DNA from: Nonlabens arenilitoris
GTDB taxonomy: Bacteria > Bacteroidota > Bacteroidia > Flavobacteriales > Flavobacteriaceae
Assembly (NCBI RefSeq): GCF_002954765.1
Contig: NZ_MTPW01000001.1
Location: 2,121,501 to 2,185,500, forward strand
Direction: 5' to 3'
DNA: 64,000 bases
Made by a program: the position numbers and the translations under genes. How positions within the stretch are numbered: the stretch's first letter is position 1; each line of letters opens with the position of its first letter. The notes under the pieces are model-generated. The model searched no databases. It was not told the origin of the DNA and saw nothing but the letters and a program-made list of their open reading frames with translations. This document shows positions 3,884-20,846 of this stretch, one piece after another.

Positions 3884-3997
3884 GTTTGTGAGTCTCTGAG
3901 TCTTTGAGGAACATACTATCAGAACCAACCGATTTTTTTGCCCAGCAAAAAAAACTCACGAACTCACGAACTCACCAACTCAACGACTAACCAACTA
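3863..3997. repeat. ORF-less inverted repeat of degenerate 8-mers
   Basis: The left arm (about 3863-3908) consists of GAGTTTGT/GAGTCTTT-type units. The right arm (about 3954-3997) consists of ACTCACGA/ACTCACCA-type units and is complementary to it. A spacer of about 45 bases lies between. The left arm contains the GH3 stop codon and the right arm contains the stop codon of the convergent protease gene. The unit is the same as in the arms of the four-helix-bundle cassette at 14170-14662, but no gene lies between the arms. It may act as a two-way transcription stop. Confidence 0.75.
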
Positions 3998-6090: not shown

Positions 6091-6103
6091 AAAAATAAAA
6101 AAG

Positions 6104-7063: not shown

Positions 7064-7078
7064 TTATATCCCTACTGT

Positions 7079-7138
7079 CAAGCTGAACTTGTCGAAGCTG
7101 ATTGGGTATGAATCACCATCGACAAGCTCAGGCTGGCA
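7079..7138. repeat. Inverted pair of CTGAGCTTGTCGAAG-type repeats
   Basis: AGCTGAACTTGTCGAAG and, in inverse orientation, ATCGACAAGCTCAGGCT lie about 20 bases apart in the paaA-paaB gap and can fold into a hairpin. Related single copies lie at 9746-9768 and 22861-22883. Confidence 0.75.
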
Positions 7139-7156
7139 AATTAATTACAACTAATT

Positions 7157-7441
7157 ATGAGTCAAGAAATTCCACTTTGGGAAGTTTTTATAAGATCTAA
7201 AAACGGATTAGAACACAGGCATTGCGGTAGCTTACATGCCGAAGATGCTGAAATGGCATTAAACAATGCTCGTGACGTGTATACTCGTAGAAATGAAGGT
7301 GTAAGTATTTGGGTAGTAGAATCTAAAAATATAACAGCTAGCAGTCCAGAGGACAGCGGCGAATTATTTGAACCTGCTAGCGATAAAGTCTATAGACATC
7401 CTACTTTTTATGAGTTACCTGAAGAATTAAAACACATGTAA
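7157..7441 (+). CDS. paaB: Phenylacetyl-CoA epoxidase subunit PaaB
   Basis: This 94-residue protein has the normal PaaB length and the typical start (PLWEVFIRSKNGLEHRHCGSLHAEDAEMALNNARDVYTRR). PaaB holds the PaaA-PaaC assembly together and is needed for activity in the known complex. Its last codons, including the stop, form the left half of a perfect 20-bp hairpin (7422-7441 with 7454-7473). Confidence 0.95.
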   Translation: MSQEIPLWEVFIRSKNGLEHRHCGSLHAEDAEMALNNARDVYTRRNEGVSIWVVESKNITASSPEDSGELFEPASDKVYRHPTFYELPEELKHM

Positions 7442-7473
7442 TAAGCACAGCTTTTACATGTGTTTTAATTCTT
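7422..7473 (+). repeat. Perfect 20-bp hairpin over the paaB stop codon
   Basis: Bases 7422-7441 are repeated as an exact reverse complement at 7454-7473 with a 12-base loop. The left half is paaB coding sequence plus its stop. There is no T-run after it and paaC follows in the same direction, so it is not an obvious terminator; it may stabilise or stop processing of the upstream mRNA piece. Confidence 0.8.
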
Positions 7474-7896
7474 AAATCTAAACTTAAGTTGAAACTTAAA
7501 TTTAAAATTAATGGGTAAACCGTATGATCTAGAAGATCGATTAATCAGTTTTGCTGCTGATGTAATTGTAGTTTTTGACAAGCCTGCTAAAACTTACGCT
7601 TCTAAATACTATGCTGAGCAACTCATAAGATCTTCTGGTTCTGTCTCTTTAAATTTTAGTGAATTTGCTGGTGCAGGAACTGAAAAAGATAAAATCAATA
7701 AATTGAGAATATCGCTTAAAGAGATTAAAGAGTGCAATAACAATTTAAAAATCCAACTCAAAGCTGGTTTAAGCAACAAAGACCAATTGACAAAGCTGCA
7801 GGATGAAGCGGAACAAATTATCAGAATTCTAGTAGCTATTATAAATAAACGATAACCCTTTAAATTTAGATTTAAATTTAGATTTAAGTTTAATAT
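7474..7896 (+). mobile_element. Four-helix-bundle cassette 1 (S23/IVP type) between paaB and paaC
   Basis: The left arm (7474-7510) and right arm (about 7861-7894) are AT-rich degenerate hexamer tracts (AAACTT/AAATTT against TTTAGA/TTTAAG) that are roughly complementary. They enclose one small gene. The left arm ends at its ATG and the right arm ends about 10 bases before the paaC start. That the unit is mobile is inferred from its four copies with the same layout, not shown by a target duplication. Confidence 0.6.
7511..7855 (+). CDS. Four-helix-bundle protein, S23/IVP family (cassette 1)
   Basis: This 114-residue protein belongs to the four-helix-bundle family first seen in intervening sequences of bacterial 23S rRNA and structurally related to the Avd protein of diversity-generating retroelements. 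It has the family features YYAEQLIRSSGSVSLNFSEF and KINKLRISLKEIKECNNNLKIQL. Members form ring-shaped oligomers that can bind nucleic acid; the cellular role is not known. The closest relative in the window is the N-terminal half of the paaD fusion at 8779. It lies within the paa operon and would be co-transcribed with paaB and paaC. Confidence 0.85.
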   Translation: MGKPYDLEDRLISFAADVIVVFDKPAKTYASKYYAEQLIRSSGSVSLNFSEFAGAGTEKDKINKLRISLKEIKECNNNLKIQLKAGLSNKDQLTKLQDEAEQIIRILVAIINKR

Positions 7897-7904
7897 CATT
7901 AGAT

Positions 7905-8708
7905 ATGAAACAACCAATAAAAGAACTAAATCCACAATTCCTAGAGTCCAAGGAAAACAAACAACACCTGATCGACTATCTTCTAGGTGTGGCAGATAAT
8001 TATTTAATCTTAGGACAGCGTCTAGGCGAACTTTGTGGTCATGGACCTAATCTAGAGCCAGATATAGCATTGACTAATATTTCGCTAGATATGTTAGGGC
8101 AAGTGCGTAGTTTTTACCAATATATCGCACAGTTGAAAGGTGATAAAACCACTGAGGATGATATTGCTTTCTTAAGAAAAGAGCGTGAGTATAAGAATGT
8201 ATTATTGGTGGAACAACCTAATACAGATTTTGGATACGTGATTGTACGTCAGTTTTTCTTTGATGTCTATAACAGAATGTTTTTAGGAGCTTTACAACAA
8301 AGTGCTGATGAAACGCTTAGAGCTCTTGCTTTTAAAGGAATCAAAGAAGCAAGTTATCATGAGCGTTTTTCAGGAGATTGGTTAAAACGATTAGGTGATG
8401 GTACTGAAGAAAGTCATCAGCGAGTGCAACAAGCAGTAAATGACCTTTGGGTTTATACAGATGAGCTGTTTCACACCACTAAGGCAGATGATGCTATGAT
8501 AGCTGCTGGTGTAGCGCCAGACATGTTGCAATTAAGAGAATATTACTATGAAAAAGTAGAAGATTTACTTACTACAGCGACATTAAAAATTCCAGAAGTA
8601 GAATACTTCCAAAAAGGTGGTAAAGAAGGATTACATAGCGAGCACATGGGTTATATCCTTGCAGATATGCAGTATATGCAGAGGACTTATCCAGATAGTA
8701 AGTGGTAA
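7905..8708 (+). CDS. paaC: Phenylacetyl-CoA epoxidase structural subunit PaaC
   Basis: This 267-residue protein is the ferritin-like structural partner of PaaA, slightly longer than the usual 250. Segments LGQRLGELCGHGPNLEPDIALTNISLDMLGQ, FRQFFFDVYN-like helices and the EASYHERFSGDW segment are typical of PaaC. It pairs with PaaA in the epoxidase core. It starts shortly after the right arm of cassette 1 and stops just before the left arm of cassette 2. Confidence 0.95.
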   Translation: MKQPIKELNPQFLESKENKQHLIDYLLGVADNYLILGQRLGELCGHGPNLEPDIALTNISLDMLGQVRSFYQYIAQLKGDKTTEDDIAFLRKEREYKNVLLVEQPNTDFGYVIVRQFFFDVYNRMFLGALQQSADETLRALAFKGIKEASYHERFSGDWLKRLGDGTEESHQRVQQAVNDLWVYTDELFHTTKADDAMIAAGVAPDMLQLREYYYEKVEDLLTTATLKIPEVEYFQKGGKEGLHSEHMGYILADMQYMQRTYPDSKW

Positions 8709-8710
8709 TC

Positions 8711-9178
8711 TTTGAATTTGAATTTGAACTTGAATTCGAACTCGAATTTGAAGTAACTCGAAATTTTAAATTATTAAGATGTCTTATCAAGACTTAGCAG
8801 AAAGATTAGAGGATTTTGCGGCGGCAATTATTAAATTGTATATCAAAATGCCTACTTCTTATGCTGGTCAATATCTTGCTCAGCAAATTATTCGTTCTTC
8901 ATGTTCATCGGCTCTCAATTATGGAGAAGCTCTAGGCGCAGGTACTTCTAAAGATCGAATCAATAAACTACGTATTTCTTTAAAGGAACTACGTGAAAGT
9001 TTGAGGAATTTAAACATTCAAAGGAAAGCAGATCTAATCAGCGTGGATGATTGTAAAGATCTGGTAAAAGAAAATGATGAATTAATAAGAATTATAGTAA
9101 CTCTAATTAAAATTCAAATGAATAATTTATCAAATTTAAATTCGAGTTCAGATTCAAGTTCGAGTTCAACTTCTTCAA
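8711..9178 (+). mobile_element. Four-helix-bundle cassette 2, fused into paaD
   Basis: The left arm (8711-8766) consists of GAATTTGAACTT-type hexamers. The right arm (about 9131-9178) is its imperfect reverse complement; over a 33-base core about 28 positions pair. The right arm is read in frame as a Ser/Asn-rich linker and ends two bases before the ATG of paaD at 9181. Confidence 0.65.
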
Positions 9179-9684
9179 GTATGGCAGATCAAATATTCGA
9201 ATCTTTACCAAAAGAGATTCTTGCCATTCTAGAAGAAGTTGCCGATCCTGAAATACCTGTATTAAACGTCGTAGATCTAGGTGTAATAAGAGAAGTTTTA
9301 GTTGAAGGAAAAGAAATCACCATAAAACTCACACCTACTTATAGCGGCTGTCCAGCGATGGATGTTATAGGCGATGATCTAGAGCGAGCATTTGCAGTTC
9401 ACGGTTACACAACTCACATACAATTAATTATGAGTCCGCCGTGGACAACTGACTGGATTACCGAACGTGGTCGTAAAGCGCTAGAAGAATACGGTATTGC
9501 TGCACCACTAGAAGAAACTGCCGATAAAGATGTACTTCTTAACGATAAGAAACTGGTAAAATGTACCAATTGTGGCTCAAAGAATACGAAGCTGGTCAGT
9601 CAGTTTGGTTCTACAGCGTGTAAAGCAATGTTTCAATGTGAGGACTGTCTAGAGCCTTTTGATTACTTTAAGTGTTTGAAATAA
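8779..9684 (+). CDS. paaD: Four-helix-bundle protein fused to PaaD (FeS-assembly-like protein of the epoxidase)
   Basis: One frame encodes 301 residues. Residues 1 to about 113 are a four-helix-bundle protein related to cassette 1. Residues about 114-134 are a Ser/Asn-rich linker translated from the repeat arm. Residues 135-301 are a full-length PaaD: a DUF59/MIP18-like domain (EEVADPEIPVLNVVDLGVIREV, YSGCPAMDVI) and a C-terminal zinc-ribbon (CTNCG ... CEDC). PaaD is needed for a working epoxidase, probably for iron-sulfur supply. The ATG at 9181 would give a 167-residue PaaD on its own, the normal length, so both a fusion and a separate PaaD are possible. Confidence 0.85.
   Translation: MSYQDLAERLEDFAAAIIKLYIKMPTSYAGQYLAQQIIRSSCSSALNYGEALGAGTSKDRINKLRISLKELRESLRNLNIQRKADLISVDDCKDLVKENDELIRIIVTLIKIQMNNLSNLNSSSDSSSSSTSSSMADQIFESLPKEILAILEEVADPEIPVLNVVDLGVIREVLVEGKEITIKLTPTYSGCPAMDVIGDDLERAFAVHGYTTHIQLIMSPPWTTDWITERGRKALEEYGIAAPLEETADKDVLLNDKKLVKCTNCGSKNTKLVSQFGSTACKAMFQCEDCLEPFDYFKCLK
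9181..9684 (+). other. paaD: Alternative stand-alone PaaD frame (internal ATG)
   Basis: Starting at ATG 9181 the product is 167 residues beginning MADQIFESLP, which is the expected length and start of PaaD. Homology favours this as the ancestral start. The sequence alone does not show which start is used. Confidence 0.6.
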
Positions 9685-9687
9685 GAA

Positions 9688-9703
9688 CGCTTTCGCGAAA
9701 GCG
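9688..9703. repeat. CGCTTTCGCGAAAGCG palindrome, exact
   Basis: Exact copy four bases after the paaD stop codon. Confidence 0.9.
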
Positions 9704-9745
9704 TAACAACCACTATCTTTAAATAAATTTTTAAAACTAAAATAT

Positions 9746-9768
9746 CAGTCTGAGCTTGTCGAAGACGA
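9746..9768 (+). repeat. CAGTCTGAGCTTGTCGAAGAC repeat
   Basis: A 23-base segment identical to 22861-22883. It has the core CTGAGCTTGTCGAAG and lies just before the paaG start. GTCT and AGAC at its ends are complementary. Confidence 0.8.
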
Positions 9769-9788
9769 TATTTAATATACATCATTTA

Positions 9789-10571
9789 ATGTCAGATTCT
9801 ATCTTGCTACAAGTCAATAACGGCGTTGCAACCATAACTTTAAATAGACCACAAGTATTCAATTCCTTTAACCGCGAGATGGCATTTGCCTTGCAGGACG
9901 CACTCGATCAATGTGCTTCAAACGATGAAGTGAGAGCTGTGATGATTATAGGAGAAGGAAAAGCCTTTTGTGCCGGTCAGGACATTCAAGAAATCACAAA
10001 TCCAGATTTGAATCCAGGTTTTAAAGCGATTCTAGACGATCATTATAATCCTATAGTTTTAAAAATTAGAAACCTTGAAAAACCAGTTGTTGCTGCAGTA
10101 AATGGAGTAGCCGCTGGTGCCGGAGCAAATATCGCCTTGTGTTGTGATGTGGTTATTGCTACAGAAGGTGCTGCATTCATTCAGGCATTTTCTAAAATCG
10201 GTCTGATTCCAGATAGTGCGGGAACCTTCTTTTTACCTAGACTCATCGGTTTTGGTAAAGCAAGTGCCGCGATGATGCTGGCTGATAAAATTACAGCACC
10301 AGAAGCTGACCAAATGGGAATGATCTATAAAGCCATTCCTGACGCAGATTTTATTGAAACAGCTCAAAAGACCGCTCAAAAACTAGCAGCATTACCTACA
10401 GTAGCGTTAGCTAATACTAAAAAAGCACTCAATCAATCATTTTACAATACGGTAGAAGAGCAACTAGTTCTAGAGTCAAAACTACAAATAGAAAGCGCAT
10501 CCACAGAAGATTATGCTGAAGGTGTGTCGAGTTTTATGGAGAAACGTAAACCTGTTTTTAAAGGAAAATAG
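9789..10571 (+). CDS. paaG: 1,2-epoxyphenylacetyl-CoA isomerase PaaG (enoyl-CoA hydratase/isomerase family)
   Basis: This crotonase-fold protein converts the ring epoxide to the seven-membered oxepin-CoA. The oxyanion-hole segments FCAGQDIQEI and AAVNGVAAGAGANIALCCD are present, and the second site reads KIGLIPDSAGTFFLPRLIG, where Asp replaces the hydratase Glu as in known PaaG. The ATG at 9789 is chosen, giving 260 residues against a usual 262. The in-frame sequence upstream would be translated from the CTGAGCTTGTCGAAG repeat. It is the last + strand gene before the opposed SulP gene. Confidence 0.9.
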   Translation: MSDSILLQVNNGVATITLNRPQVFNSFNREMAFALQDALDQCASNDEVRAVMIIGEGKAFCAGQDIQEITNPDLNPGFKAILDDHYNPIVLKIRNLEKPVVAAVNGVAAGAGANIALCCDVVIATEGAAFIQAFSKIGLIPDSAGTFFLPRLIGFGKASAAMMLADKITAPEADQMGMIYKAIPDADFIETAQKTAQKLAALPTVALANTKKALNQSFYNTVEEQLVLESKLQIESASTEDYAEGVSSFMEKRKPVFKGK

Positions 10572-10579
10572 AACAGTTT

Positions 10580-12235
10580 TTATAATTTAAAATAATTTTT
10601 TAAGTACTCAAAGGCTTCTTCTATAGTTGCAAAAGTCTCAGATTCACTTACTAAATCTGGTATGATATCAATCGATTCTAATTTATCTTTAGGTTGTTCT
10701 TGTAAACCGGTAAGAACTACTCTTACACCACGTTTTTCTAAGTCTAGAACAGCATTTTCTAAAGCATACAAACCAGATTGATCTATGTATGGAACTCGAT
10801 CTAGACGAATTATCAACGCTTTTACTTCTGGAGAAAGAGCTTTAATAGTTTCTTGAAAGTGTGACGTGAAACCGAAGAACAATGGTCCATAGAGGTGCTT
10901 TATATAAATTTGATCCTTAAAAGTATCATATAACTCTTGCTCGTCTTTCCAAGGTTGTTCACCGTCAAATCCTGCAAGAGTTCCTACTTCTAGTCCTTTT
11001 TCTCCTAGATCGCTTGCGCGTTTCATAAATAGTAAGGATGCCAGTATCACTCCGATTCCTACCGCTTGTATGAGACTACCAAATGTGGTCATCAACAGTA
11101 CGATAATTAAAACCACTGCATCTGCACGCGGTACCGCAAGTAAATGCTTCAATCCTTTTGTATCTATAATTTTAAAACCGATAGGAATCAAAATTCCGGC
11201 AAGAACAGCTAGTGGAATATGCGCTGCAAGACCACTCAAACCTAGTAAAACTGCTGCAAGAAATAATCCATGTAACACACCTGACAAGCGTGTTTTTCCA
11301 CCAGAATTTATATTTACTACTGTTCCTTTTGTAGCTCCAGCACCTGGAATACCACCAAATATCGCAGCAACCATGTTCCCTATTCCTTGACCTATTAATT
11401 CTCTATTGCTATTATGTTTTGTTTTAGTCATATTATCTGCAATGACTGATGTAAGCAAAGAGTCTATAGAACCTAAAACAGCTAGTACTAAGGCATATTC
11501 GGCCACAAGTGCATAGGCACTCGAGTCAATATCTAAAATTCCGTTTAATTTCAAAGAAGGTAATCCAGATGGGATATCGCCTATGATAGGCACTTGCCAC
11601 GGTAAGAAATAAGCAACAACAGAAACAACTATCAACGCCACTAGTGCACTAGGTATTACTTTAGTAATTTTAGGAAATGTATAATAAATGAATACAGTTA
11701 ACGATCCTAATACTAGTGCTTGCCAATTAAAGCCTTCTATTAATAACGGCATGTCACTTAGAACTTTCAATGTGTTTTTAGGGGATACCATTCCAAAAAG
11801 CGGGAATATTTGAAGTAATATAATGATTAAACCTACACCGCTCATAAAACCAGATACCACAGGATAAGGGAAGTATTTAATGTATCCAGCTATGTTGATA
11901 AAGCCAAAAAGCATTTGAATAATCCCACCAGTTAAAAACGTAAGTATGATTATAGGCATCGCGGCTTCTACGCTGCCGGTAAGTTCAATAGCTTTTACCA
12001 CTAAAGCAGCAGATACTACCGTCATAGGTCCAGTAGGTCCACTGGCTTGAGTTGCAGTACCACCAAAGATAGCTGCAAAAATCCCAACTGCGATAGCACC
12101 ATATAGTCCAGCAATAGCTCCTAAACCAGATTGAACACCAAATGCTAGTGCAAGCGGTAGTGCAACAACACCAGCGACTAGACCACCAGTGAGATCACCT
12201 TTTAAATTTTTAGTATCATAAAAAGAAGAAAGCAT
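10580..12235 (-). CDS. SulP-family anion transporter with STAS domain
   Basis: This protein of about 551 residues has the SulP layout: KGDLTGGLVAGVVALPLALAFGVQSGLGAIAGLYGAI at the start, some ten or more membrane segments, and a C-terminal STAS domain (about residues 440-550, with IIRLDRVPYIDQSGLYALENA). SulP proteins carry sulfate, bicarbonate or other anions; the substrate here is open. The ATG at 12235 (MLSSFYDTKN) is chosen; an in-frame start at 12325 adds 30 residues unlike the family. It lies on the opposite strand and breaks the run of paa genes. Confidence 0.9.
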   Translation of the reverse strand: MLSSFYDTKNLKGDLTGGLVAGVVALPLALAFGVQSGLGAIAGLYGAIAVGIFAAIFGGTATQASGPTGPMTVVSAALVVKAIELTGSVEAAMPIIILTFLTGGIIQMLFGFINIAGYIKYFPYPVVSGFMSGVGLIIILLQIFPLFGMVSPKNTLKVLSDMPLLIEGFNWQALVLGSLTVFIYYTFPKITKVIPSALVALIVVSVVAYFLPWQVPIIGDIPSGLPSLKLNGILDIDSSAYALVAEYALVLAVLGSIDSLLTSVIADNMTKTKHNSNRELIGQGIGNMVAAIFGGIPGAGATKGTVVNINSGGKTRLSGVLHGLFLAAVLLGLSGLAAHIPLAVLAGILIPIGFKIIDTKGLKHLLAVPRADAVVLIIVLLMTTFGSLIQAVGIGVILASLLFMKRASDLGEKGLEVGTLAGFDGEQPWKDEQELYDTFKDQIYIKHLYGPLFFGFTSHFQETIKALSPEVKALIIRLDRVPYIDQSGLYALENAVLDLEKRGVRVVLTGLQEQPKDKLESIDIIPDLVSESETFATIEEAFEYLKNYFKL

Positions 12236-12482
12236 AGTACAATGTTTTTTAGTCGGCAAGTTATAAAAGTAACGTAATGCCTTGAGCTTATAAACAAATC
12301 TAGGTCCTATTGCCCAATAGTTCAAAATAATTTAATTGTAAGGGTAAATAATCAATGTGTTTATATTGTGTATCCGGTCAAGACTTATATTTTTATTAGA
12401 TGACTTGACTAAGTAACTTATTATATTTGGTAAGTAAAAGAAACTAAGAATAGCCAAAAATTAATGGTGAATTATTAAATCT
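12236..12482. other. Divergent control region between SulP and paaH
   Basis: No gene is seen. TATATTTG at 12422-12429 fits a Bacteroidota -7 box for paaH, but no TTTG lies at the right distance upstream. The ACTAACA palindrome of the other paa promoters is absent here. Confidence 0.35.
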
Positions 12483-13661
12483 ATGGATATCAATAAAGTA
12501 GGAGTCATAGGAGCAGGAACAATGGGAAGTGGAATTGCTCAAGTAGCTGCCACTGCTGGTTGTAAAGTAAAACTGTTTGATGTTAATCAGGCGCAACTAG
12601 ATAAAGCACAAGCTGCTCTAGAAAAGATAATGAACCGACTTATCGAGAAAGGTAGAATAGATACTGCTGAGAAAAGTCGCATTCAATCTAATATCACTTA
12701 TGTTAGTACGGTAAAGGATCTAGCTGACTCTGATCTAACTATCGAGGCGATTGTTGAGAATCTAGATATTAAGAAAAAGGTGTTTCAAGAACTAGAATCT
12801 CATGTGTCTGACAGCTGTATTATAGCTTCAAACACTTCTAGTCTAAGCATCGCTAGTATTGCAGCATCACTCGATAAACCAGAGCGTTGCATAGGAATTC
12901 ACTTTTTTAATCCAGCGCCATTAATGAAGCTTGTTGAGGTAATTCCTGCCGTACAAACGGCTCAAAATGTTACAGATACTTGTGTGGCTACTATCGAGAA
13001 TTGGAAAAAAGTAGTTGCCGTAGCAAAGGATACTCCAGGTTTCATAGTTAATCGTGTGGCGCGACCATTTTACAGTGAATCGTTGCGTATTTATGAAGAA
13101 GGAATGGCGAGTTTTGCCACAATAGACTATGCCTTGAAAGGACTTGGTTTTAAAATGGGACCTTTTGAATTGATGGATTATATAGGTCACGATGTGAATT
13201 ATGTGGTGACCGAAACTGTTTTTGCTGCCTTCTATTTTGATCCTCGTTACAAGCCATCTTTAACTCAAAAACGATTGATGGAAGCTGGCTGGCTAGGTCG
13301 TAAATCAGGTAGAGGATTTTATGATTATGTAAATGTGGATAGTGAGCACGCTTTCGCGAAAGCGGACCCAGTAAAATCACCTGAACTCATAAAAGAAATT
13401 CAAGATCGTGTACTCGTTATGTTAATCAATGAGGCGGCAGATGCCTTATTTCTAAACATAGCAACGGCACAAGGAATAGATAGCGCGATGACCAAAGGCG
13501 TGAATTATCCAAAAGGATTACTCGCCTGGGCAAACGAAAAAGGAATAGAATGGTGTGTAAACGGACTGGACGCGATGTATGATTTGTACCGAGAAGATCG
13601 CTACAGATGCTCGCCGATTTTACGTAAAATGAATGCTGCTGGAACTAAATTCTCGCTGTAA
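12483..13661 (+). CDS. paaH: 3-hydroxyacyl-CoA dehydrogenase PaaH
   Basis: This 392-residue enzyme oxidises 3-hydroxyadipyl-CoA to 3-oxoadipyl-CoA with NAD. The Rossmann motif GVIGAGTMGSGIAQ is at residues 8-21, the catalytic region IGIHFFNPAPLMKLVEVIP follows, and the C-terminal domain has NRVARPFYSE, GPFELMDYIG and GWLGRKSGRGFYDY. It is shorter than the 475-residue enterobacterial PaaH. Residues 290-294 (AFAKA) are encoded by an exact copy of the recurrent palindrome, just after the GRGFYDY motif. The stop overlaps the start of the DUF1697 gene. Confidence 0.9.
   Translation: MDINKVGVIGAGTMGSGIAQVAATAGCKVKLFDVNQAQLDKAQAALEKIMNRLIEKGRIDTAEKSRIQSNITYVSTVKDLADSDLTIEAIVENLDIKKKVFQELESHVSDSCIIASNTSSLSIASIAASLDKPERCIGIHFFNPAPLMKLVEVIPAVQTAQNVTDTCVATIENWKKVVAVAKDTPGFIVNRVARPFYSESLRIYEEGMASFATIDYALKGLGFKMGPFELMDYIGHDVNYVVTETVFAAFYFDPRYKPSLTQKRLMEAGWLGRKSGRGFYDYVNVDSEHAFAKADPVKSPELIKEIQDRVLVMLINEAADALFLNIATAQGIDSAMTKGVNYPKGLLAWANEKGIEWCVNGLDAMYDLYREDRYRCSPILRKMNAAGTKFSL
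13349..13364. repeat. CGCTTTCGCGAAAGCG palindrome, exact
   Basis: Exact copy inside paaH, read as AFAKA (residues 290-294). Confidence 0.9.
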
Positions 13662-14188
13662 TGAGATATGTTGCTTTATTGCGTGGTGTTAATGTTAGTG
13701 GTAAGAATAAATTACCAATGGCACTTTTAAGAGAAGCTCTTAAAGCAACTCCATTTTGTGACGCGACCACTTATATACAATCTGGTAATATTGTTTTTAA
13801 TGCCGATTTAGATATAACTACTTGTGAGCAGATTATTGCAGATTTATTGAAAGCAGAATTTGATTTAAATGTTCCTGTAATTGTGCGTGAACAATCTGCG
13901 ATTAAAGATATACTAAAAGTAAACCCTTTTGAAACGAGAACTATTGAGAATTCTAAATTCATGAGTTTTGGCTTTTTCGATAAGATTCCAGTTACAGAAA
14001 AGATTGATGAGGTGATGTCATTCTCCACAGAAATCGAAACCTTTAAAATAGTAGATGATGTGATGTATTTCTATTGCGGAGTAGGTTTTGGCAAGACTAA
14101 AATGACTAATGCATGGTTTGAAAAGAAACTAGGTGTGACATCAACAATGCGTAATTATAACACTACAACTAAGTTAGTGAGTCTTTGA
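13661..14188 (+). CDS. DUF1697 family protein
   Basis: This 175-residue protein matches DUF1697 (RYVALLRGVNVSGKNKLPMALLREAL at the start, TYIQSGNIVFNAD, and WFEKKLGVTSTMRNYNT at the end), a widespread cytoplasmic family of unknown function. It starts within the paaH stop codon, so it is probably co-translated, yet it has no known part in phenylacetate breakdown. Its last four codons and stop lie in the left arm of cassette 3. Confidence 0.88.
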   Translation: MRYVALLRGVNVSGKNKLPMALLREALKATPFCDATTYIQSGNIVFNADLDITTCEQIIADLLKAEFDLNVPVIVREQSAIKDILKVNPFETRTIENSKFMSFGFFDKIPVTEKIDEVMSFSTEIETFKIVDDVMYFYCGVGFGKTKMTNAWFEKKLGVTSTMRNYNTTTKLVSL

Positions 14189-14224
14189 GTCTGTTAGTTA
14201 TAAAGTTAGTTTAATAATGCAATT

Positions 14225-14596
14225 ATGTTTGAAAGTAAGTATCATTTTAAATTTGAAGATCTGATTGTTTATCAAAAGGCTATGGCTTTTGGTGAAAAGA
14301 TAAATGTTTTATCAGAGAGTTTTCCCAAAAAAGAACTTTATAGATTGTCTTCTCAATATGCAAGAGCAGCTGATTCTATCGCTGCAAATATTTCTGAGGG
14401 ATATGGAAGTACAGATGCAAATTTTAATAGATATTTAAAAATGGCTTGGGATAGTAGTCACGAGTGTGTAACTTGGAATTCTAAGGCGTTTCTAAGGCAG
14501 TATATCACACACGATACTTTTGAAGCTAATAGAAAAGATTTAACCGAAATTGGTAAAATGATATCATCGTTAAGGCGAAGTCTTAAAAATAAGTAA
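14225..14596 (+). CDS. Four-helix-bundle protein, S23/IVP family (cassette 3)
   Basis: This 123-residue protein begins FESKYHFKFEDLIVYQKAM, the classic start of the 23S rRNA intervening-sequence protein family, and continues with AADSIAANISEG and FNRYLKMAWDSSHECVTWN. By eye it is about three quarters identical to the protein at 20426 and only distantly like those at 7511 and 8779, so the window holds two sub-families with two members each. No function can be assigned beyond the fold. Confidence 0.9.
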   Translation: MFESKYHFKFEDLIVYQKAMAFGEKINVLSESFPKKELYRLSSQYARAADSIAANISEGYGSTDANFNRYLKMAWDSSHECVTWNSKAFLRQYITHDTFEANRKDLTEIGKMISSLRRSLKNK

Positions 14597-14604
14597 GACA
14601 TTTA

Positions 14605-14660
14605 CTCACCAACTCACCAACTCACCAACTCACCAACTCACCAACTCACCAACTCACCAA
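14605..14660 (+). repeat. Seven perfect tandem copies of CTCACCAA
   Basis: Seven identical 8-base units in the right arm of cassette 3, directly before the paaI start codon. The partner arm has diverged, which suggests recent expansion by slippage. Confidence 0.95.
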
Positions 14661-14664
14661 CTAA

Positions 14665-15081
14665 ATGACTCAAAAACTTAAAGGAACTGATATTCCAGCA
14701 AAAATGCTTTCACTTGATCCATATTCTACATGGTTAGGTATTGAAATCCTTTCTGTAGAAATAGGTTGTGTAAAGTTAGGAATGACCATAAGACCAGAAA
14801 TGTTGAATAGTATGGGAAAAGCACATGGTGGGATTACTTACTCGCTGGCAGATACTGCTTTTGGTTTTTCATCCAACACGCACGGTAAATTTGCTGTATC
14901 CATAGAAACAAGCATCAACCACATAGAAGCATTAGAAGAAGGCGACTACATTACAGCAGAATGTACCCTAGACAAAACCAAAACCAAAGTAGGTTTTAAC
15001 ATCGTTGAGGTAAAAAAAGGCGATGAGTTGGTGGCACTTTTTAAAGGAGTGGTTTATAGGACTAATAAGGATTGGGAATAA
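14665..15081 (+). CDS. paaI: Hotdog-fold thioesterase PaaI
   Basis: This 138-residue hotdog thioesterase has the PaaI motif GKAHGGITYSLADTAFGF with the catalytic Asp in the long helix, and family length. PaaI hydrolyses dead-end CoA esters of the pathway and frees CoA. The ATG comes three bases after the CTCACCAA array, so translation starts in the lee of a potential RNA stem. Confidence 0.92.
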   Translation: MTQKLKGTDIPAKMLSLDPYSTWLGIEILSVEIGCVKLGMTIRPEMLNSMGKAHGGITYSLADTAFGFSSNTHGKFAVSIETSINHIEALEEGDYITAECTLDKTKTKVGFNIVEVKKGDELVALFKGVVYRTNKDWE

Positions 15082-15109
15082 AAAAATATAAAAACTAAAA
15101 ATTAATATT

Positions 15110-16321
15110 TTGAAAAACACATATATAATCGACGGTGTTCGTACACCCATAGGAAATTACAAAGGAACATTATCTACCATAAGACCAGATGATCTTGCGG
15201 CACATGTTATAAAAACTGTAGTAAAGCGTAATCCAAATATCCCAAAAGACGCCTATGCCGATGTGATCATGGGCTGTGCTAACCAGGCAGGAGAAGATAA
15301 CCGTAATGTAGCACGTATGGCAGCATTACTCGCTGGTTTACCAGTTACAGTTCCAGGAGAAACGGTCAACAGACTGTGTAGTAGTGGATTAAGTGCTATT
15401 GTGCATGCACATAGAGCAATACAAACTGGTGATGGAGATGTTTTTATTTCTGGTGGAGTAGAGAATATGACTCGTGGACCATTAGTAATTGCAAAACCTA
15501 GTAGCGCCTTTGGTACCGATTCTAAGATGTACGATTCTAGTTTTGGTTGGCGTTTTGTCAATCACAAAATGGCCGAAATGTACGGTGTAGACGGAATGGG
15601 AAACACTGCTGAAAACCTTGTAGAGAAATTTACAATCTCTCGAGAAGATCAAGATGCATTTGCAGCGTGGTCCCAACAAAAAGCGACAGCAGCTCAACAA
15701 TCAGGAAGATTGGCTAAAGAAATAGTAGCTGTAGAAATTCCACAACGTAAAAAAGATCCTATCATCTTTAAAGATGACGAGTTCATCAAACCGACTACAA
15801 CTAAAGAAGTTCTAGCAAAACTACGTCCAGCCTTTAAAAAAGACGGTGGTTCTGTTACTGCGGGAAATTCCAGCGGTTTAAATGATGGTGCCGCTGCAAC
15901 GATTATTGCCAGTGAAGATGCTGTAAAGAAATATAACTTAAAGCCTATGGCTAGAGTGGTGAGTAGTGCGGTAGTTGGAGTAGAGCCACGCATTATGGGA
16001 ATAGGTCCAGTTACAGCGAGTAATAAAGCATTAGAAAAGGCAGGTTTAACGCTAGCTGATATGGATGTGATAGAATTGAATGAAGCATTTGCATCACAAG
16101 CACTAGCTTGCACCAGAGCTTGGGGACTTGCAGATGATGATCCAAGACTTAATCCGAATGGTGGATCTATCGCGATAGGGCATCCACTAGGTGTGACTGG
16201 AACTAGATTAGCTTATAGTGCTGCATTAGAACTTCAATTAACTAATAAGAAATATGCCTTAATAACTATGTGCGTAGGAGTAGGGCAAGGGTATGCGATG
16301 GTGATTGAGAATGTTAGTTAG
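15110..16321 (+). CDS. paaJ: 3-oxoadipyl-CoA/3-oxo-5,6-dehydrosuberyl-CoA thiolase PaaJ
   Basis: This 403-residue thiolase has the nucleophile Cys90 in NRLCSSGLSAI, the His in NEAFA/GHPLGVTG segments and the second Cys in MCVGVGQG. It carries out both thiolytic steps of the pathway, giving acetyl-CoA and succinyl-CoA. The start is TTG at 15110 (MKNTYIIDGVRTPIG), since no ATG fits the conserved N-terminus. It ends a transcription unit: a hairpin terminator follows at 16346. Confidence 0.92.
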   Translation: MKNTYIIDGVRTPIGNYKGTLSTIRPDDLAAHVIKTVVKRNPNIPKDAYADVIMGCANQAGEDNRNVARMAALLAGLPVTVPGETVNRLCSSGLSAIVHAHRAIQTGDGDVFISGGVENMTRGPLVIAKPSSAFGTDSKMYDSSFGWRFVNHKMAEMYGVDGMGNTAENLVEKFTISREDQDAFAAWSQQKATAAQQSGRLAKEIVAVEIPQRKKDPIIFKDDEFIKPTTTKEVLAKLRPAFKKDGGSVTAGNSSGLNDGAAATIIASEDAVKKYNLKPMARVVSSAVVGVEPRIMGIGPVTASNKALEKAGLTLADMDVIELNEAFASQALACTRAWGLADDDPRLNPNGGSIAIGHPLGVTGTRLAYSAALELQLTNKKYALITMCVGVGQGYAMVIENVS

Positions 16322-16345
16322 AACAATCTCCTAAATTAAACTTAT

Positions 16346-16383
16346 AAGTCTCTAAATCTTTATTGGATTTAGAGACTTTTTAT
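16346..16383 (+). terminator. Hairpin terminator after paaJ
   Basis: AAGTCTCTAAATC (16346-16358) pairs with GATTTAGAGACTT (16366-16378) and runs into a T-rich tail. Confidence 0.85.
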
Positions 16384-16413
16384 TTAGAGCAAAAATATTA
16401 CTATTTTACTTTA

Positions 16414-16429
16414 ACTAACAACTGTTAGT
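16414..16429 (+). promoter_or_regulatory. Candidate operator before paaZ
   Basis: ACTAACA-AC-TGTTAGT is a perfect 7+2+7 palindrome of the same type as before paaE and the E2 gene. All three have a TTTT run shortly upstream and a TAG-TTT-like sequence overlapping the right half. A weaker -7-like box, TATTTTCG, follows near 16448. Confidence 0.75.
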
Positions 16430-16472
16430 CTTTCCACTCACTTTTTGTATTTTCGTAGGCATATAAGTGTTA

Positions 16473-16488
16473 CGCTTTCGCGGAAGCG
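16473..16488. repeat. CGCTTTCGCGAAAGCG palindrome, one change
   Basis: Copy with G for A at the eleventh base, 27 bases before the paaZ ATG, where it would form a hairpin in the leader. Confidence 0.85.
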
Positions 16489-16514
16489 AGATCACAACTA
16501 TCTATTAAGAAATT

Positions 16515-19055
16515 ATGATTCTAGAAAGTTACATCAATGGCCAGTGGATTGCTGGTGAGGAGAAATCTACACGTAATATGTATGACGCCATTACTGGTGA
16601 TATCATAGGTCTTACAAGTACAGAAGGTTTAGATATTGCTAGTGCGTTACAATATGGTCGCGACCACGGTAAGGTGTTGAGAGATATGACGTTTCAGCAA
16701 CGTGGTAATATGATTAAGAAATTAGCACTTTACCTCAATAAAAGAAAAAAAGCATTTTATGACATTAGTTATAAAACTGGTGCCACACGTGCAGATAGTT
16801 GGGTAGATATAGAAGGTGGTTTTGGAAATTTATTTGCAAATGCTAGTTTAAGAAAACTCTTTCCAGATCAGTCCTATGCGGTAGAAGGTGACCCTATAGA
16901 TTTATCGCGTGGTGGTCGTTTTATGGCACATCACATTCTAGTACCTCGCAGAGGTGTCGCCGTACATATCAACGCCTTTAACTTCCCTGTATGGGGAATG
17001 TTAGAAAAATGTGCTGTAAACTGGATGGCTGGTATGCCAGCAGTCGTGTTGCCAGCACCACAAACAGCCTTTTTAACGGAAGCTGTAGTGCGTGAAATCA
17101 TAAATTCAGGTATACTTCCTGAAGGATCTTTACAGCTCCTAAGTGGATTGACCACAAGTATTTTAGATACAGTCAACTCGCAAGACGTAGTAACATTCAC
17201 AGGTAGTGCAGCAACAGGTAGAAAGCTTAAAGCACATCCAAGACTTTTAGAAGAATCAGTTCCTTTTACCATGGAAGCCGATTCTTTAAACTCTTCTGTT
17301 TTAGGACCAGACGCTGTTCCTGGAACGCCAGAATTTGACATATTTGTAAAAGAAGTACGTAAAGAGATGACCTCTAAAGCTGGACAAAAATGTACTGCGA
17401 TTAGAAGGATTCTTGTCCCAGAAAACTTAATGGAAGATGTACAAATTGCATTAGGGAAACAACTTTCCAAAACAGTGATAGGTGATCCATTATTGAGAGA
17501 AACTCGCATGGGTGCTCTTATTAATAACGATCAAAGAGAAACTACTAAATCTCAAATCTCAAAAATTGCTCAAACCGCACAAATGGTTTATGGTAACTTA
17601 GATGAGGTGGAGATTTTAGGAGATCGCGCCCAAAAAGGAGCGTTTATGTCACCTATTTTAATGCGAGAAGATCAACCGTTTAAAAATACCGCAGCTCACG
17701 AGATAGAATGTTTTGGTCCTGTGAGTACTTTGATGCCTTATAAAAATATAGATGAGGCAATCGAGCTAGCTCACATGGGTAAAGGCTCGTTGGTGAGCAG
17801 TGTAGTTACTAGTGATGACGCTTTCGCGAAAGCGTACACCATAAACGCAGCATCGTCTCATGGTAGAATATTGACTTTAAATAGAGATAGCGCACCACAA
17901 TCCACAGGTCACGGATCGCCGTTACCATTGTTAGTGCATGGTGGACCAGGACGTGCTGGTGGCGGCGAGGAAATGGGCGGACTGCGAGGTATTAAACATT
18001 ACATGCAGCGTTGTGCCGTTCAAGGAAGTCCAACTTCGTTAACTGAAATCACCGGAATCTATCAACCTAATGGTGCTTATAAAAAAGCAGAGAATCATCC
18101 ATTCTCATACCATTATGAAGATATCAAGCCAGGAATGAGTCTAGAGACGCATAAAAGAACACTGACTGATAATGATATCCAGAATTTTGCAAACCTTACT
18201 TGGGATCATTTCTATGCGCATACAGATATTACCAGTTTAGATGGTAGTATTTTTAAGAAACGTACCGCGCACGGATACTTTATAATCAGTGCCGCAGCAG
18301 GACTTTTTGTTTATCCTAATAAAGGTCCGGTAAGTGCAAATTATGGTCTAGAAGATATTCGTTTCTTGAGACCATTATATCACAATGACACGATTTATGT
18401 ACGTTTGACTTGTAAAGAAAAAAGAGAAAGAGACGTCGCTGGTCGTGAGCACCCATCTGGAATTGTAAAATGGTATGTAGAAGTTTTTGATGCAGAGCCT
18501 GTAGATTATGAAAATGGTAAGACTGATGAAGAAGCAACAGCACTGGTAGCTGTGGCAACCATTCTTACCATGGTAGAGAAAAAACAAACGGTATTTCCAG
18601 AAATTACAGAAGATTATATCAAGTCTGCTTTAGCAAAATTAGATGCAAATGCAAAACCTCAATGGGGAACGATGACACCACAACATATGGTAGAACATCT
18701 AGAGATGAGCTATAGAATTGCTAGTGGAGAGATTCAAGATTTTGAAGTGGCTACACCAGATGAATATCTAGAAAAAGTAGCAGCGACTTTGTGGAATTAT
18801 GACAAGATGCCACAAAATCACAAAATGCCATTAATGAAACAAGATGGAACACTTGAAGACTTAAAACATGGAGATTTAGAAACGGCAAAACAACAACTAT
18901 TAGAAGCTAGAAATGAATATCTAGATTTCTATAAAAAGAATCCAAAAGCATCAACAAAGAATGCTGTTTTTGGACCGTTGAGTAAGTATGAATGGACCTT
19001 GTTAGAGAGAAAGCATTTGAGTCATCATTTTGAACAGTTTAATCTAGTAGGTTAA
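16515..19055 (+). CDS. paaZ: PaaZ: oxepin-CoA hydrolase/aldehyde dehydrogenase with an extra DUF1569 domain
   Basis: This 846-residue protein has three parts. Residues 1 to about 515 are an aldehyde dehydrogenase (EADSLNSS and GQKCTAIRR with the catalytic Cys). About 535-690 is a MaoC-like hydratase (LTDNDIQNFANLTWDHFYAHTD, GYFIISAAAG). Residues 697-846 are a DUF1569 domain of the DinB type with HMVEHLEMS and a C-terminal HLSHHFEQF that could bind metal. Normal PaaZ has 681 residues and ends where this third part begins. PaaZ opens the oxepin ring and oxidises the aldehyde. Residues 436-440 (AFAKA) come from the recurrent palindrome. The stop lies in a perfect hairpin. Confidence 0.93.
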   Translation: MILESYINGQWIAGEEKSTRNMYDAITGDIIGLTSTEGLDIASALQYGRDHGKVLRDMTFQQRGNMIKKLALYLNKRKKAFYDISYKTGATRADSWVDIEGGFGNLFANASLRKLFPDQSYAVEGDPIDLSRGGRFMAHHILVPRRGVAVHINAFNFPVWGMLEKCAVNWMAGMPAVVLPAPQTAFLTEAVVREIINSGILPEGSLQLLSGLTTSILDTVNSQDVVTFTGSAATGRKLKAHPRLLEESVPFTMEADSLNSSVLGPDAVPGTPEFDIFVKEVRKEMTSKAGQKCTAIRRILVPENLMEDVQIALGKQLSKTVIGDPLLRETRMGALINNDQRETTKSQISKIAQTAQMVYGNLDEVEILGDRAQKGAFMSPILMREDQPFKNTAAHEIECFGPVSTLMPYKNIDEAIELAHMGKGSLVSSVVTSDDAFAKAYTINAASSHGRILTLNRDSAPQSTGHGSPLPLLVHGGPGRAGGGEEMGGLRGIKHYMQRCAVQGSPTSLTEITGIYQPNGAYKKAENHPFSYHYEDIKPGMSLETHKRTLTDNDIQNFANLTWDHFYAHTDITSLDGSIFKKRTAHGYFIISAAAGLFVYPNKGPVSANYGLEDIRFLRPLYHNDTIYVRLTCKEKRERDVAGREHPSGIVKWYVEVFDAEPVDYENGKTDEEATALVAVATILTMVEKKQTVFPEITEDYIKSALAKLDANAKPQWGTMTPQHMVEHLEMSYRIASGEIQDFEVATPDEYLEKVAATLWNYDKMPQNHKMPLMKQDGTLEDLKHGDLETAKQQLLEARNEYLDFYKKNPKASTKNAVFGPLSKYEWTLLERKHLSHHFEQFNLVG
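17819..17834. repeat. CGCTTTCGCGAAAGCG palindrome, exact
   Basis: Exact copy in the aldehyde dehydrogenase part of paaZ, read as AFAKA (residues 436-440). Confidence 0.9.
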
Positions 19056-19066
19056 ACTGTTCAAAA
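19028..19066 (+). repeat. Perfect 15-bp hairpin over the paaZ stop codon
   Basis: Bases 19028-19042 pair exactly with 19052-19066 across a 9-base loop. The left half is paaZ coding sequence and the stop (19053-19055) is in the right half. No T-run follows. Confidence 0.8.
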
Positions 19067-19100
19067 CATCCGCGCAGGCGTTACAAAAGCCTTTTAGTAG

Positions 19101-19574
19101 GTCAAGCCGCTGCAGAGCGGCTTCGCTAAATTCTAATGGAGATGACAGTAATAATTCACAATCCGTGATGAAAACAATGTATACATACATAATGTCTCAT
19201 GTTGAGAATAAACTATTTTATGTAGGTGTGACTAACAATATTAAACAGCGAGTCTTTGACCATAAGAATGCTACTTTTGAAACTCATGTTGGTAAATTTA
19301 ATATCAAGCAGTTAGTTTGGTTTGAAAAACATGACAACCCAACAGAAGCTATTAAGCGTGAAAAACTTATTAAAAAATGGAAACGAGAATATAAGATTAA
19401 TTTGATATAGAGTATAAATCCAGATTGGAATGATCTGGCAGAAGATTGGGATTTCACTGGTTTTATTACCAATAAGGAGAGATTTAAATAAATATTTAGA
19501 TAAATTAAATAGGGCTTGGTATTTAAAAGCTTTGGAGATAAATTATAACCGAAGCCGCTCTACAGCGGCTTGAC
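19101..19574 (+). mobile_element. GIY-YIG cassette with 25-base inverted repeats
   Basis: Bases 19101-19125 and 19550-19574 are reverse complements with one mismatch. Each also folds into an 8-bp hairpin (AAGCCGCT, 4-base loop, AGCGGCTT). They enclose a GIY-YIG gene. A related solo hairpin lies at 22916-22933, before the E1 gene. No direct target duplication could be made out. Confidence 0.6.
19168..19491 (+). pseudogene. GIY-YIG nuclease domain protein, interrupted by a stop
   Basis: The gene encodes a small single-domain GIY-YIG protein (YTYIMSHVENKLFYVGVTNNIKQRVFDHK, KREKLIKKWKREYKINLI) of the UPF0213-like type. A TAG at 19408-19410 stops it after 80 residues. The same frame then continues SINPDWNDLAEDWDFTGFI to a TAA at 19489-19491, which is the normal end of the family (usually with Glu at the stop position). 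So a single base change has cut off the C-terminal end; the catalytic part before it is intact and could still fold. The ATG at 19168 is preferred to the GTG just before it. Confidence 0.8.
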
Positions 19575-19589
19575 ATTAAGACATACATT

Positions 19590-20342
19590 TTGACAAAGGA
19601 ATACGTAAAAACAACAACAGAAAATCAAATACAAACCATAGAATTCTTTCACCCAGCGCACAATTCGTTGCCAGGTGATATTCTAGCACAACTAGCACAA
19701 GCTATTACTGATGCTGGAAATGACGATGCGACCAAAGTAATCATCCTAAAATCTGGTGGAGAACGCACTTTTTGTGCAGGAGCAAGTTTTAAAGAGCTCA
19801 TCGCAATCGATGATGAAAAAACTGGCGAAGTATTCTTCTCTGGCTTTGCAAACGTGATCAACGCAATGCGCAAATGTCCTAAGTTCATATTAGGCCGTGT
19901 GCAAGGAAAAACAGTAGGTGGTGGAGTAGGAGTTGCTGCAGCCACAGACTATTGTTTTGCTACTAAATTTGCTAGTATTAAGTTAAGCGAACTCAACATA
20001 GGAATCGGACCATTTGTAGTAGGTCCAGCGGTAGAGCGCAAACTAGGATTAACTGGAATGAGCCAGATCGCCATAAACGCAAACGAATTCTATTCACCAC
20101 AATGGGCAAAAGACAACGGGCTATTTGCTGAAGTGTATGAATCTACAGAAGAAATGGACGCAGGAATACAAGCATTTGCAGAGAACCTATGCACTTATAA
20201 TCCAGATGCTATGGTCGAGATGAAAAAGATGTTCTGGACTGGTTGTGAAAATTGGGATCAATTACTTTTTGAAAGAGCAAAGATTTCTGGAAGATTGGTA
20301 TTGAGTGAGTTTACTAAGGAGACCTTGAAGCGCTTTCGCTAG
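19590..20342 (+). CDS. paaF: Enoyl-CoA hydratase, PaaF-like
   Basis: This 250-residue crotonase-fold enzyme has FCAGASFKEL and GKTVGGGVGVAAATDYCFAT for the oxyanion hole, with LSELNIGIGPFVVGP downstream. Size and position fit PaaF, the hydratase that acts on 2,3-dehydroadipyl-CoA, completing the pathway set; another hydratase, for example for methylglutaconyl-CoA, cannot be excluded. The start is TTG at 19590, about 16 bases after a palindromic repeat. The C-terminus ends in a half copy of the recurrent palindrome (CGCTTTCGCT), and the left arm of cassette 4 starts just after the stop. Confidence 0.8.
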   Translation: MTKEYVKTTTENQIQTIEFFHPAHNSLPGDILAQLAQAITDAGNDDATKVIILKSGGERTFCAGASFKELIAIDDEKTGEVFFSGFANVINAMRKCPKFILGRVQGKTVGGGVGVAAATDYCFATKFASIKLSELNIGIGPFVVGPAVERKLGLTGMSQIAINANEFYSPQWAKDNGLFAEVYESTEEMDAGIQAFAENLCTYNPDAMVEMKKMFWTGCENWDQLLFERAKISGRLVLSEFTKETLKRFR

Positions 20343-20343
20343 T

Positions 20344-20846
20344 CTTGAGTTATGAGTTATGAGTTATGAGCTATGAGTTATAAGTGGATCCTAATAAAAT
20401 GACAATAAATATTCAAATTAGAATTATGGAATTTGAAAGTAATTATCATTTCAGTTTTGAAAATCTAAAGGTTTATCAAAAAGCTGTTTATTTTGGCGAG
20501 ACTATTAATCAACTTGTAGATAAATTTCCTAAAAAGGAAATGTATCGCTTATCCTCACAATTCTGTCGAGCAGCAGATTCAATAGCAGCTAATATATCAG
20601 AAGGTTCAGGAAGCACAGATCCTAATTTTAATAGATACCTAAAAATGGCCTGGGATAGCAGTCATGAATGCGTTACCTGGAATACTAAAGCATTTCTGAG
20701 AAAGTATATCTCAAAAGAGGAATTTGAAAATAATCGAGCCGTGCTTACTGAAATAGGTAAAATGATTTTTGGACTAAGAAGTAAATTAAAATCAAAATAA
20801 TTGAACGCTAGGAGCTAACCGCTCATAGCTCAAAACTCATAGCTCT
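20344..20846 (+). mobile_element. Four-helix-bundle cassette 4 between paaF and paaY
   Basis: The left arm (about 20346-20385) consists of GAGTTAT-type 7-mers. The right arm (about 20810-20846) reads CTCATAGCTCAAAACTCATAGCT and is its imperfect complement. The left arm starts right after the paaF stop, and the right arm ends at the paaY ATG. Confidence 0.65.
20426..20800 (+). CDS. Four-helix-bundle protein, S23/IVP family (cassette 4)
   Basis: This 124-residue protein starts at ATG 20426 (MEFESNYHFSFENLKVYQKAV); in-frame sequence further upstream does not resemble the family. It shares AADSIAANISEG and the 19-residue block FNRYLKMAWDSSHECVTWN with the cassette 3 protein. The protein is well conserved while the flanking arms of the two cassettes differ, so the arms change much faster than the gene. 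Confidence 0.9.
   Translation: MEFESNYHFSFENLKVYQKAVYFGETINQLVDKFPKKEMYRLSSQFCRAADSIAANISEGSGSTDPNFNRYLKMAWDSSHECVTWNTKAFLRKYISKEEFENNRAVLTEIGKMIFGLRSKLKSK

Follow-up and report, generated by a model that had tools for sequence, protein, structure and literature searches.

How does one gene family come to fill four gaps of a single operon cluster, each copy between repeat arms that mirror one another and differ from those of the next copy? The question is raised by a 64,000-nucleotide stretch of the Nonlabens arenilitoris genome (contig NZ_MTPW01000001.1, positions 2,121,501 to 2,185,500; hereafter the window), in which profile searches place S23/IVP genes in four gaps of a phenylacetate (paa) cluster. 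All four copies score above the curated cut-off of PF05635/TIGR02436, in line with the initial annotation of this DNA. Each is framed by two short-tandem-repeat arrays, the downstream one approximately the reverse complement of the upstream one. S23 genes, a family first found inside rRNA genes, also sit between genes of many bacterial operons, often with their own matched arms. The explanation we favour, with roughly even confidence, is that each copy is an exchangeable inter-cistronic element, made of one S23 gene between inverted, lineage-private short-repeat arrays that are read by the element's own protein.

The cluster codes for PaaB, a PaaA/PaaC-type subunit, PaaD, PaaG-like and PaaH-like proteins, DUF1697, a 4HBT thioesterase, a thiolase, PaaZ, an enoyl-CoA hydratase (ECH) and a hexapeptide protein; the four cassettes all lie on the forward strand. 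Cassette 1 comprises a hexamer/dodecamer array of AAACTT/AAATTT type (7471..7511), a gene for 114 amino acids (7511..7855; PF05635, 6.5e-14; TIGR02436) and a downstream arm found by the inverted-arm and array scans (7859..7893). In cassette 2, an arm of GAAYTY hexamers (8711..8752) precedes an S23/IVP domain (8779..9126; PF05635, 1e-12) without a stop codon: the frame crosses the downstream arm (9130..9173), which also encodes a Ser-rich linker, and runs on into PaaD (TIGR02159) as a 301-amino-acid S23-PaaD fusion open reading frame (ORF; 8779-9684). Cassette 3 has an upstream arm of GAGTCTTT type (14172..14199), a gene for 123 amino acids (14225..14596; PF05635, 2.3e-28; PDB 2rld, 1e-8) and a downstream arm of 7.4 perfect 8-mers (14604..14662) that ends 2 bases short of the next ATG. 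The upstream arm of cassette 4 consists of GAGTTAT heptamers (20346..20385); its gene encodes 124 amino acids from an ATG (20426..20800; TIGR02436, 6.6e-25; PF05635, 3.3e-27 for the longer frame from a GTG at 20384), and the downstream arm (20813..20845) stops 1 base before the next ATG. The inverted-arm scan paired 7479-7516 with 7855-7892 (82%), 8714-8752 with 9135-9173 (85%), 14172-14199 with 14611-14638 (75%) and 20347-20371 with 20821-20845 (88%).

Some details of the initial annotation need amending here. It had described four small genes, of which copy 2 is in fact fused, and arms that touch the upstream stop, which is true of cassette 3, whose arm overlaps the stop of the upstream gene, and not of cassette 1, whose array begins about 30 bases past the paaB stop. 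Copies 3 and 4, called very similar there, encode proteins that are 76% identical. The bases between the paaB stop and the array of cassette 1 hold a hairpin, the outer part of that cassette (7422..7473, forward strand; 20-base arms, 12-base loop; predicted fold -27.2 kcal/mol), in which 20 bases of the paaB 3' end are repeated in inverted form directly after the paaB stop. In genomes with the cassette 1 type, this hairpin mirrors each species' own paaB codons (CACATG/CATGTG in G000, the present genome, and in G016 and G019; CATATG/CATATG in G005, G007 and G012; GAACTC/GAGTTC in G005), and both of its arms vary together in G007, G012 and G005. In several relatives the PaaC or PaaD frame seems to start inside arm sequence.

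Do the two arms of a copy match beyond chance? In a four-by-four comparison of the window arms, own pairs score 22.5, 27, 18 and 20 and all other pairings 8 to 15.5, each upstream arm scoring highest with its own downstream arm; with the inverted-arm scan, this bears out the earlier description of the arms as rough reverse complements private to each locus. We extended the comparison to a genus set, consisting of the PF05635 copies of 23 genomes (152 raw hits, 118 non-redundant, 117 with enough flank; 115 or 116 copies in later tests), and to a wide set of 149 copies: 30 family loci, 29 phylum loci and 90 copies from named genomes, mostly Bacteroidota, with metagenome-assembled genomes labelled Clostridia, Desulfosoma, Omnitrophota, Planctomycetaceae and others. 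The wide copies are not independent, because part of them stand at orthologous sites. Paired arms of the genus average 19.4 against 10.6 for mispaired arms (n = 117 copies) and 10.3 for 252 ordinary ORFs; 75 of the 117 copies exceed the 95% level of mispaired arms and 29 exceed the 99% level. Mispairing within genomes gives the same picture, own arms beating the mean cross-pairing in 109 of 115 copies and being the single best match in 94. In the wide set, 12 of 30 family loci, 48 of 90 named-genome copies and 15 of 29 phylum loci lie above the 95% mispaired level. The complementarity that the initial annotation expected of further copies is thus well beyond mispaired and shuffled controls.

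Clear arrays, too, concentrate at S23 genes: they occur in 77 of 232 genus S23 flanks and 76 of 300 wide ones, against 1 of 514 flanks of ordinary ORFs, all drawn from this genome, and one flank per shuffled set. An S23-free 400-kb sample of this genome held one intergenic array of this kind, or seven by a looser repeat finder. At the paaB|paaC gap, own arms score 21.4, arms of the same type from another genome 21.8 and arms of another type 14.5; the arms there match by unit type, not by individual partner.

S23 genes are widespread: of the 23 genus genomes 21 have at least one copy, as do 113 of the 149 genomes sampled from the family and 75 of the 99 sampled from the phylum; counts for genome G232 are not unbiased, its region L279 having been sited on known S23 copies instead of by even spacing. 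The arm unit is mostly 7 bases outside the genus, and 6, 7 or 8 bases within it. Among pairs scoring at least 16, to which the tests of period and unit order were confined, period 7 was found in 67 of 79 wide pairs; the 72 genus pairs were mixed (7 in 36, 6 or 12 in 22, 8 in 14). Ten of the 26 plasmid records with an S23 match were examined. Nine cyanobacterial plasmid copies gave arm scores of 33, 30, 29.5, 27.5 and 17 (five of at least 17), then 15, 12, 11.5 and 7, and on a plasmid of Azospirillum lipoferum a 23S rRNA gene is interrupted by an S23 gene (the Rfam match spans the S23 gene) with inverted heptamer arms. One query against a phage collection returned no S23 match. In three loci (L259, L263 and L264) S23 lies within cyanobacterial CRISPR operons, twice between cas6 and cas4 and once between cas10 and cmr3; in the available part of a CRISPR survey (PMC10910872), a figure legend names 23S rRNA IVP.

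Does the gene travel together with its arms? Empty sites do exist in relatives, as a mobile-unit reading of the locus had suggested looking for: among 19 genomes with the paa locus, presence varies at paaC|paaD, filled in 12, and paaB|paaC is filled in all 19. The S23 proteins group mostly by site, not by genome. Arms of four types are present at paaB|paaC, and these types match the clades of the S23 protein exactly. On the S23 tree of that gap (115 columns; three truncated copies included; the broken G010 copy left out, though kept in the paa tree) arm type changes three times, the minimum, and none of 200 shuffles was as low (18 rows). It is scattered over the tree built from the flanking PaaA+B+C proteins, with nine changes, and 31 of 200 shuffles were as low (19 rows). 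An S23 tree constrained to unite seven genomes, those grouped by the flanking genes, is rejected by the approximately unbiased test (p-AU 4e-68). Close genomes locate the switches of cassette type at the neighbouring stop and start codons, directly after the paaB stop: G022 and G019 are 99% alike over the last 90 nucleotides of paaB and 64% alike in S23, while G022 and G004 are 95% alike in S23 and 86% over the same end of paaB. Over 153 genome pairs, S23 identity correlates with that of the paaB end and the paaC start at rho 0.18 and 0.15, compared with 0.68 and 0.57 for paaA against the same flanks.

Since arm type follows the S23 tree and not the flanking tree, and since the switches fall at stop and start codons, gene and arms changed hosts together. 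This suggests that they pass between species as one piece, into the same intergenic site, leaving the flanking genes behind. All the evidence for mobility is comparison of genomes, and by this comparison the unit moves independently of its flanks; trees, switch points and a replacement in G004 (below) all favour the mobile unit of the initial annotation. Its suggestion that arms are made afresh at each site fares less well, because arm type goes with the S23 lineage, though arm type does turn over. Comparing arm similarity with protein identity, a Mantel test likewise finds arm type going with protein lineage; it is no evidence of movement, since the wide set carried no site labels, its close pairs have their flanks in common, and some genus labels split one site.

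By the same comparisons, cassettes also displace one another, leaving stubs or single arms, and a few lineages sit at more than one site. At the ECH|hexapeptide gap of G004, the resident protein clusters with the lineage of the thioesterase|thiolase gap and its GGTATGT arms resemble those of G008, while an outer arm of the former resident persists on the downstream side of the newer cassette. Stubs of an older arm type lie outside a newer cassette in G003, G004 and G016, and single relic-like arrays stand at empty sites in G020, G022, G007 and G011. In other genomes the two arms at the ECH|hexapeptide gap changed in step, with units GAGCTAT in G000 and G019, GAGCTGT in G016 and GAGCTTT in G009. 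Of 187 genus pairs from different genomes with at least 60% identity, 145 have both flanks in common, 5 have one and 37 have neither; these 37 reflect mostly a few site changes inside the paa cluster, with three pairs from elsewhere.

Intact S23 genes are under purifying selection (median ratio of nonsynonymous to synonymous rates, dN/dS, 0.083 over 49 pairs at 75% identity or more), and this strong conservation implies that the protein matters to the element or to its host. Of 114 genus copies, 109 stand in sense with a co-directional gene on either side, the other five being unclassed as too far from a neighbour; in the wide set 132 of 143 do, compared with 151 of 289 background triples. Such an orientation would follow if the element relies on transcription of the host operon. 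The inverted arrays would be the ends of the element, read by its own S23 protein, which may form a ring: the solved homologues 2gsc and 2rld, linked to our proteins by sequence match, comprise 5 chains per entry. Each subunit might read one repeat unit. If a protein reads the arrays, it makes sense that the two arms share one unit, that this unit shifts along with the protein lineage and that exact pairing is unselected. In mRNA, the arms could fold the cassette out and bring the upstream stop near the downstream start, which may soften the insertion. Slippage would turn the repeats over, and copying between the arms would help them stay matched.

Could the arms act as RNA instead? They might pair in the polycistronic mRNA as in the intervening sequences (IVSs) of 23S rRNA, RNase III cutting the stem, freeing the S23 mRNA and splitting the message, with selection on the stem keeping the match. 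We regard this as possible, if on balance doubtful. Folding of the sense RNA predicts arm-to-arm pairing in all four window cassettes, over 66-90% of the upstream arm, and in three of the four more than in the antisense, so that the ORF-carrying loop on a long stem drawn by the initial annotation can form in silico and an RNA role may exist. Own duplexes are also stronger than mispaired ones (-35.7 against -23.6 and -37.0 against -26.5 kcal/mol), and the sense orientation within operons, the kinship with rRNA IVSs and the unit order kept by part of the arms fit this explanation as well. However, arm mismatches have no excess of G-U over A-C in the genus (113 against 128; 75 against 104 with other flank limits) or in the wide set (73 against 80). 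Among copies with an arm score of at least 18, the sense duplex is the more stable in 26 wide cases and the antisense in 25 (p 0.97), and in the genus the counts are 21 and 35, favouring antisense (p 0.03). Strand-specific selection for RNA pairing thus left no signal in its favour in mismatches or duplex energies, and we keep it as a rival; the claim that the arms split the polycistronic message is, as it was put, not supported by these larger sets. At paaB|paaC, moreover, arms of the same type taken from other genomes match just as well as a copy's own, and one cyanobacterial copy has direct arrays. Matching by type, ties to protein lineage and the lack of any sign of selection on the sense RNA together point to arrays read by a protein and away from a stem whose single base pairs are selected.

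Rather unlikely, in our estimate, is a neutral DNA mechanism in which slippage makes heptamer arrays, template switching between inverted arms keeps them alike, and S23 is an ordinary operon gene there by chance. Such template switching is known as quasi-palindrome correction. Several features are in its favour: some downstream arms are perfect expansions, the hairpin after paaB tracks each species' own codons, and roughly one pair in four preserves its unit order (17 of 72 in the genus and 21 of 79 in the wide set, against 7% and 0% in controls), which suggests copying between arms. In the available parts of PMC4679880 and PMC4692102, heptanucleotide repeats are the commonest class in most bacterial genomes surveyed, with polymerase slippage proposed as the cause. 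But chance residence leaves unexplained the matched arrays at S23 genes (76 of 300 wide flanks, against 1 of 514 at ordinary ORFs of this genome), their recurrence in several phyla and in rRNA IVSs, and the exchange of gene and arms as a unit. Ordinary homologous recombination through conserved flanking genes, with S23 a resident accessory gene not itself mobile, would suit the stability of most lineages across genera (28 of 30 pairs) and the occupation of paaB|paaC in 19 of 19 genomes, but is unlikely: the cassettes switched at the stop and start codons next to them, no adjoining coding sequence having moved along (G022/G019 and G022/G004), and one cassette lineage changed site inside the cluster.

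The exchangeable, protein-read element has difficulties of its own. Arms of 42 of the 117 genus copies and 74 of the 149 wide copies do not rise above the 95% level of mispaired arms, and at least three of the nine cyanobacterial copies are antisense to both neighbours; the one scoring 7 has long heptamer arrays that are direct, not inverted. Unit order kept in a quarter of pairs is not needed by a pure binding-array model. Of 30 wide pairs at 70% identity or more, 28 share both flanks (for instance a 3-hydroxyacyl-CoA dehydrogenase/ECH gene and thiolase in L151 and L120, or the small and large chains of carbamoyl-phosphate synthase in L190), so that most lineages are site-stable and movement between sites looks rare. 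Arm similarity averages 0.36 in the 37 pairs at unrelated sites, against 0.63 in the 145 with both flanks homologous. Breaks or truncations affect at least four of the 19 copies at paaB|paaC (G005, G009, G010 and G020). Genome G152 has seven solo intergenic arrays, none near its one sampled S23 gene. A constant core within the repeat unit showed a weak effect (mean z 0.40 and 0.48). All these points weigh against our reading.

Two candidate claims were dropped on this evidence. The solo arrays of G152 rule out that all heptamer arrays are S23 arms. A constant triplet core, an idea that came by analogy with the ring reading of TRAP, is not claimed given the weak effect in the null-model test. 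Elsewhere, the S23 copies of L053, L048 and L081 contain stops or frameshifts while their arms are still recognisable.

The remaining 38 kb of the window had been thought free of such cassettes. This stands for S23 genes and fails for arms: an S23-less pair, AGTCTTTG / AACTCACC, lies at 3861..3996 (no strand assigned), forming a hairpin between convergent genes (predicted fold -42 kcal/mol, z -4.16). Its unit family is that of cassette 3, and it may be the remnant of a lost cassette. The other four PF05635 matches of this genome are all on contig C2 (L038, 13,320 bases), a 13-kb fold-back repeating the same locus, with the paaB-to-DUF1697 stretch in both orientations and small frame breaks; it is probably an assembly artefact. 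A REP-like inverted motif (gtcaagctgaacttgtcgaagc ... cgacaagctcaggctggca) occurs at 7078-7140, after the gene at 6047-7063, and a similar motif is seen in the empty paaC|paaD gap of G008 (L046).

What would such elements mean? S23/IVP genes are common in the phylum, and matched arms of their own accompany 75 of 149 wide and 75 of 117 genus copies. Matched arms, and the apparent exchange of gene with arms as a unit, give the S23 family a testable substrate, and they link rRNA IVSs with S23 genes in paa, fatty-acid-oxidation, carbamoyl-phosphate and CRISPR operons. Bacterial genomes have long been noted to abound in 7-base repeats, and the cassettes offer one source for some of these. Tentatively, S23/IVP proteins and their arms could be small mobile elements of one general class: a ring protein would read its private heptad array at either end of its own gene, and protein and unit would co-evolve. 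The IVSs would then be a special case, those members of the class that landed in rRNA, and some solo heptamer arrays would be scars left by lost cassettes.

How do the cassettes compare with known systems? The closest are the 23S rRNA IVSs with an S23 ORF of Coxiella, Leptospira and Azospirillum, where, as in the window copies, the ORF lies between inverted complementary termini. The arms are alike as well, with heptamer repeats in Coxiella (GACAGAT, in the available part of PMC4990558, where two to three heptamers precede the S23 start) and in the plasmid 23S gene of Azospirillum, which upholds the kinship with IVSs that the initial annotation drew. The window copies differ in lying, all of them, between protein genes of operons and not inside an rRNA gene, and in having an arm unit private to each lineage, with any excision being putative. 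No such insert interrupts either 23S gene of this genome (2815 and 2814 nucleotides over the whole model), and a blastn search of its 23S against the loci collected until then matched solely the control locus holding its other 23S copy. In the literature searched, one open library, we found no account of S23 arms outside rRNA.

By family and by sequence match, the window proteins belong with the four-helix-bundle proteins of PF05635/TIGR02436, including PDB entries 2gsc and 2rld, which are named as uncharacterized proteins; the family definition takes in no genomic arms. According to the accessible portion of PMC10053308, Avd of diversity-generating retroelements is structurally related to PF05635. 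Published intergenic heptamer repeats resemble the arms in having 7-base units near start or stop codons (TAACTGA in Beggiatoaceae, Cyanobacteria and Bacteroidetes; GGGAATC in Xanthomonas; GGGGAYT in Nostoc; accessible portions of PMC4679880 and PMC4692102), and differ in that only some such arrays are S23 arms; the searched portions of these two texts do not mention S23 or a four-helix protein. One solo array of G152, a phylum-sample genome, has the TAACTGA unit and lies near a gene start (L290, 19369-19417). Finally, the cassettes recall DNA transposons, in which two inverted ends flank one gene. Among the cassette genes Pfam found no transposase family, only PF05635 and the PaaD domains of the copy 2 fusion, and, in contrast to transposons, the cassettes are site-stable and sense-oriented, with ends that differ wholesale between lineages.

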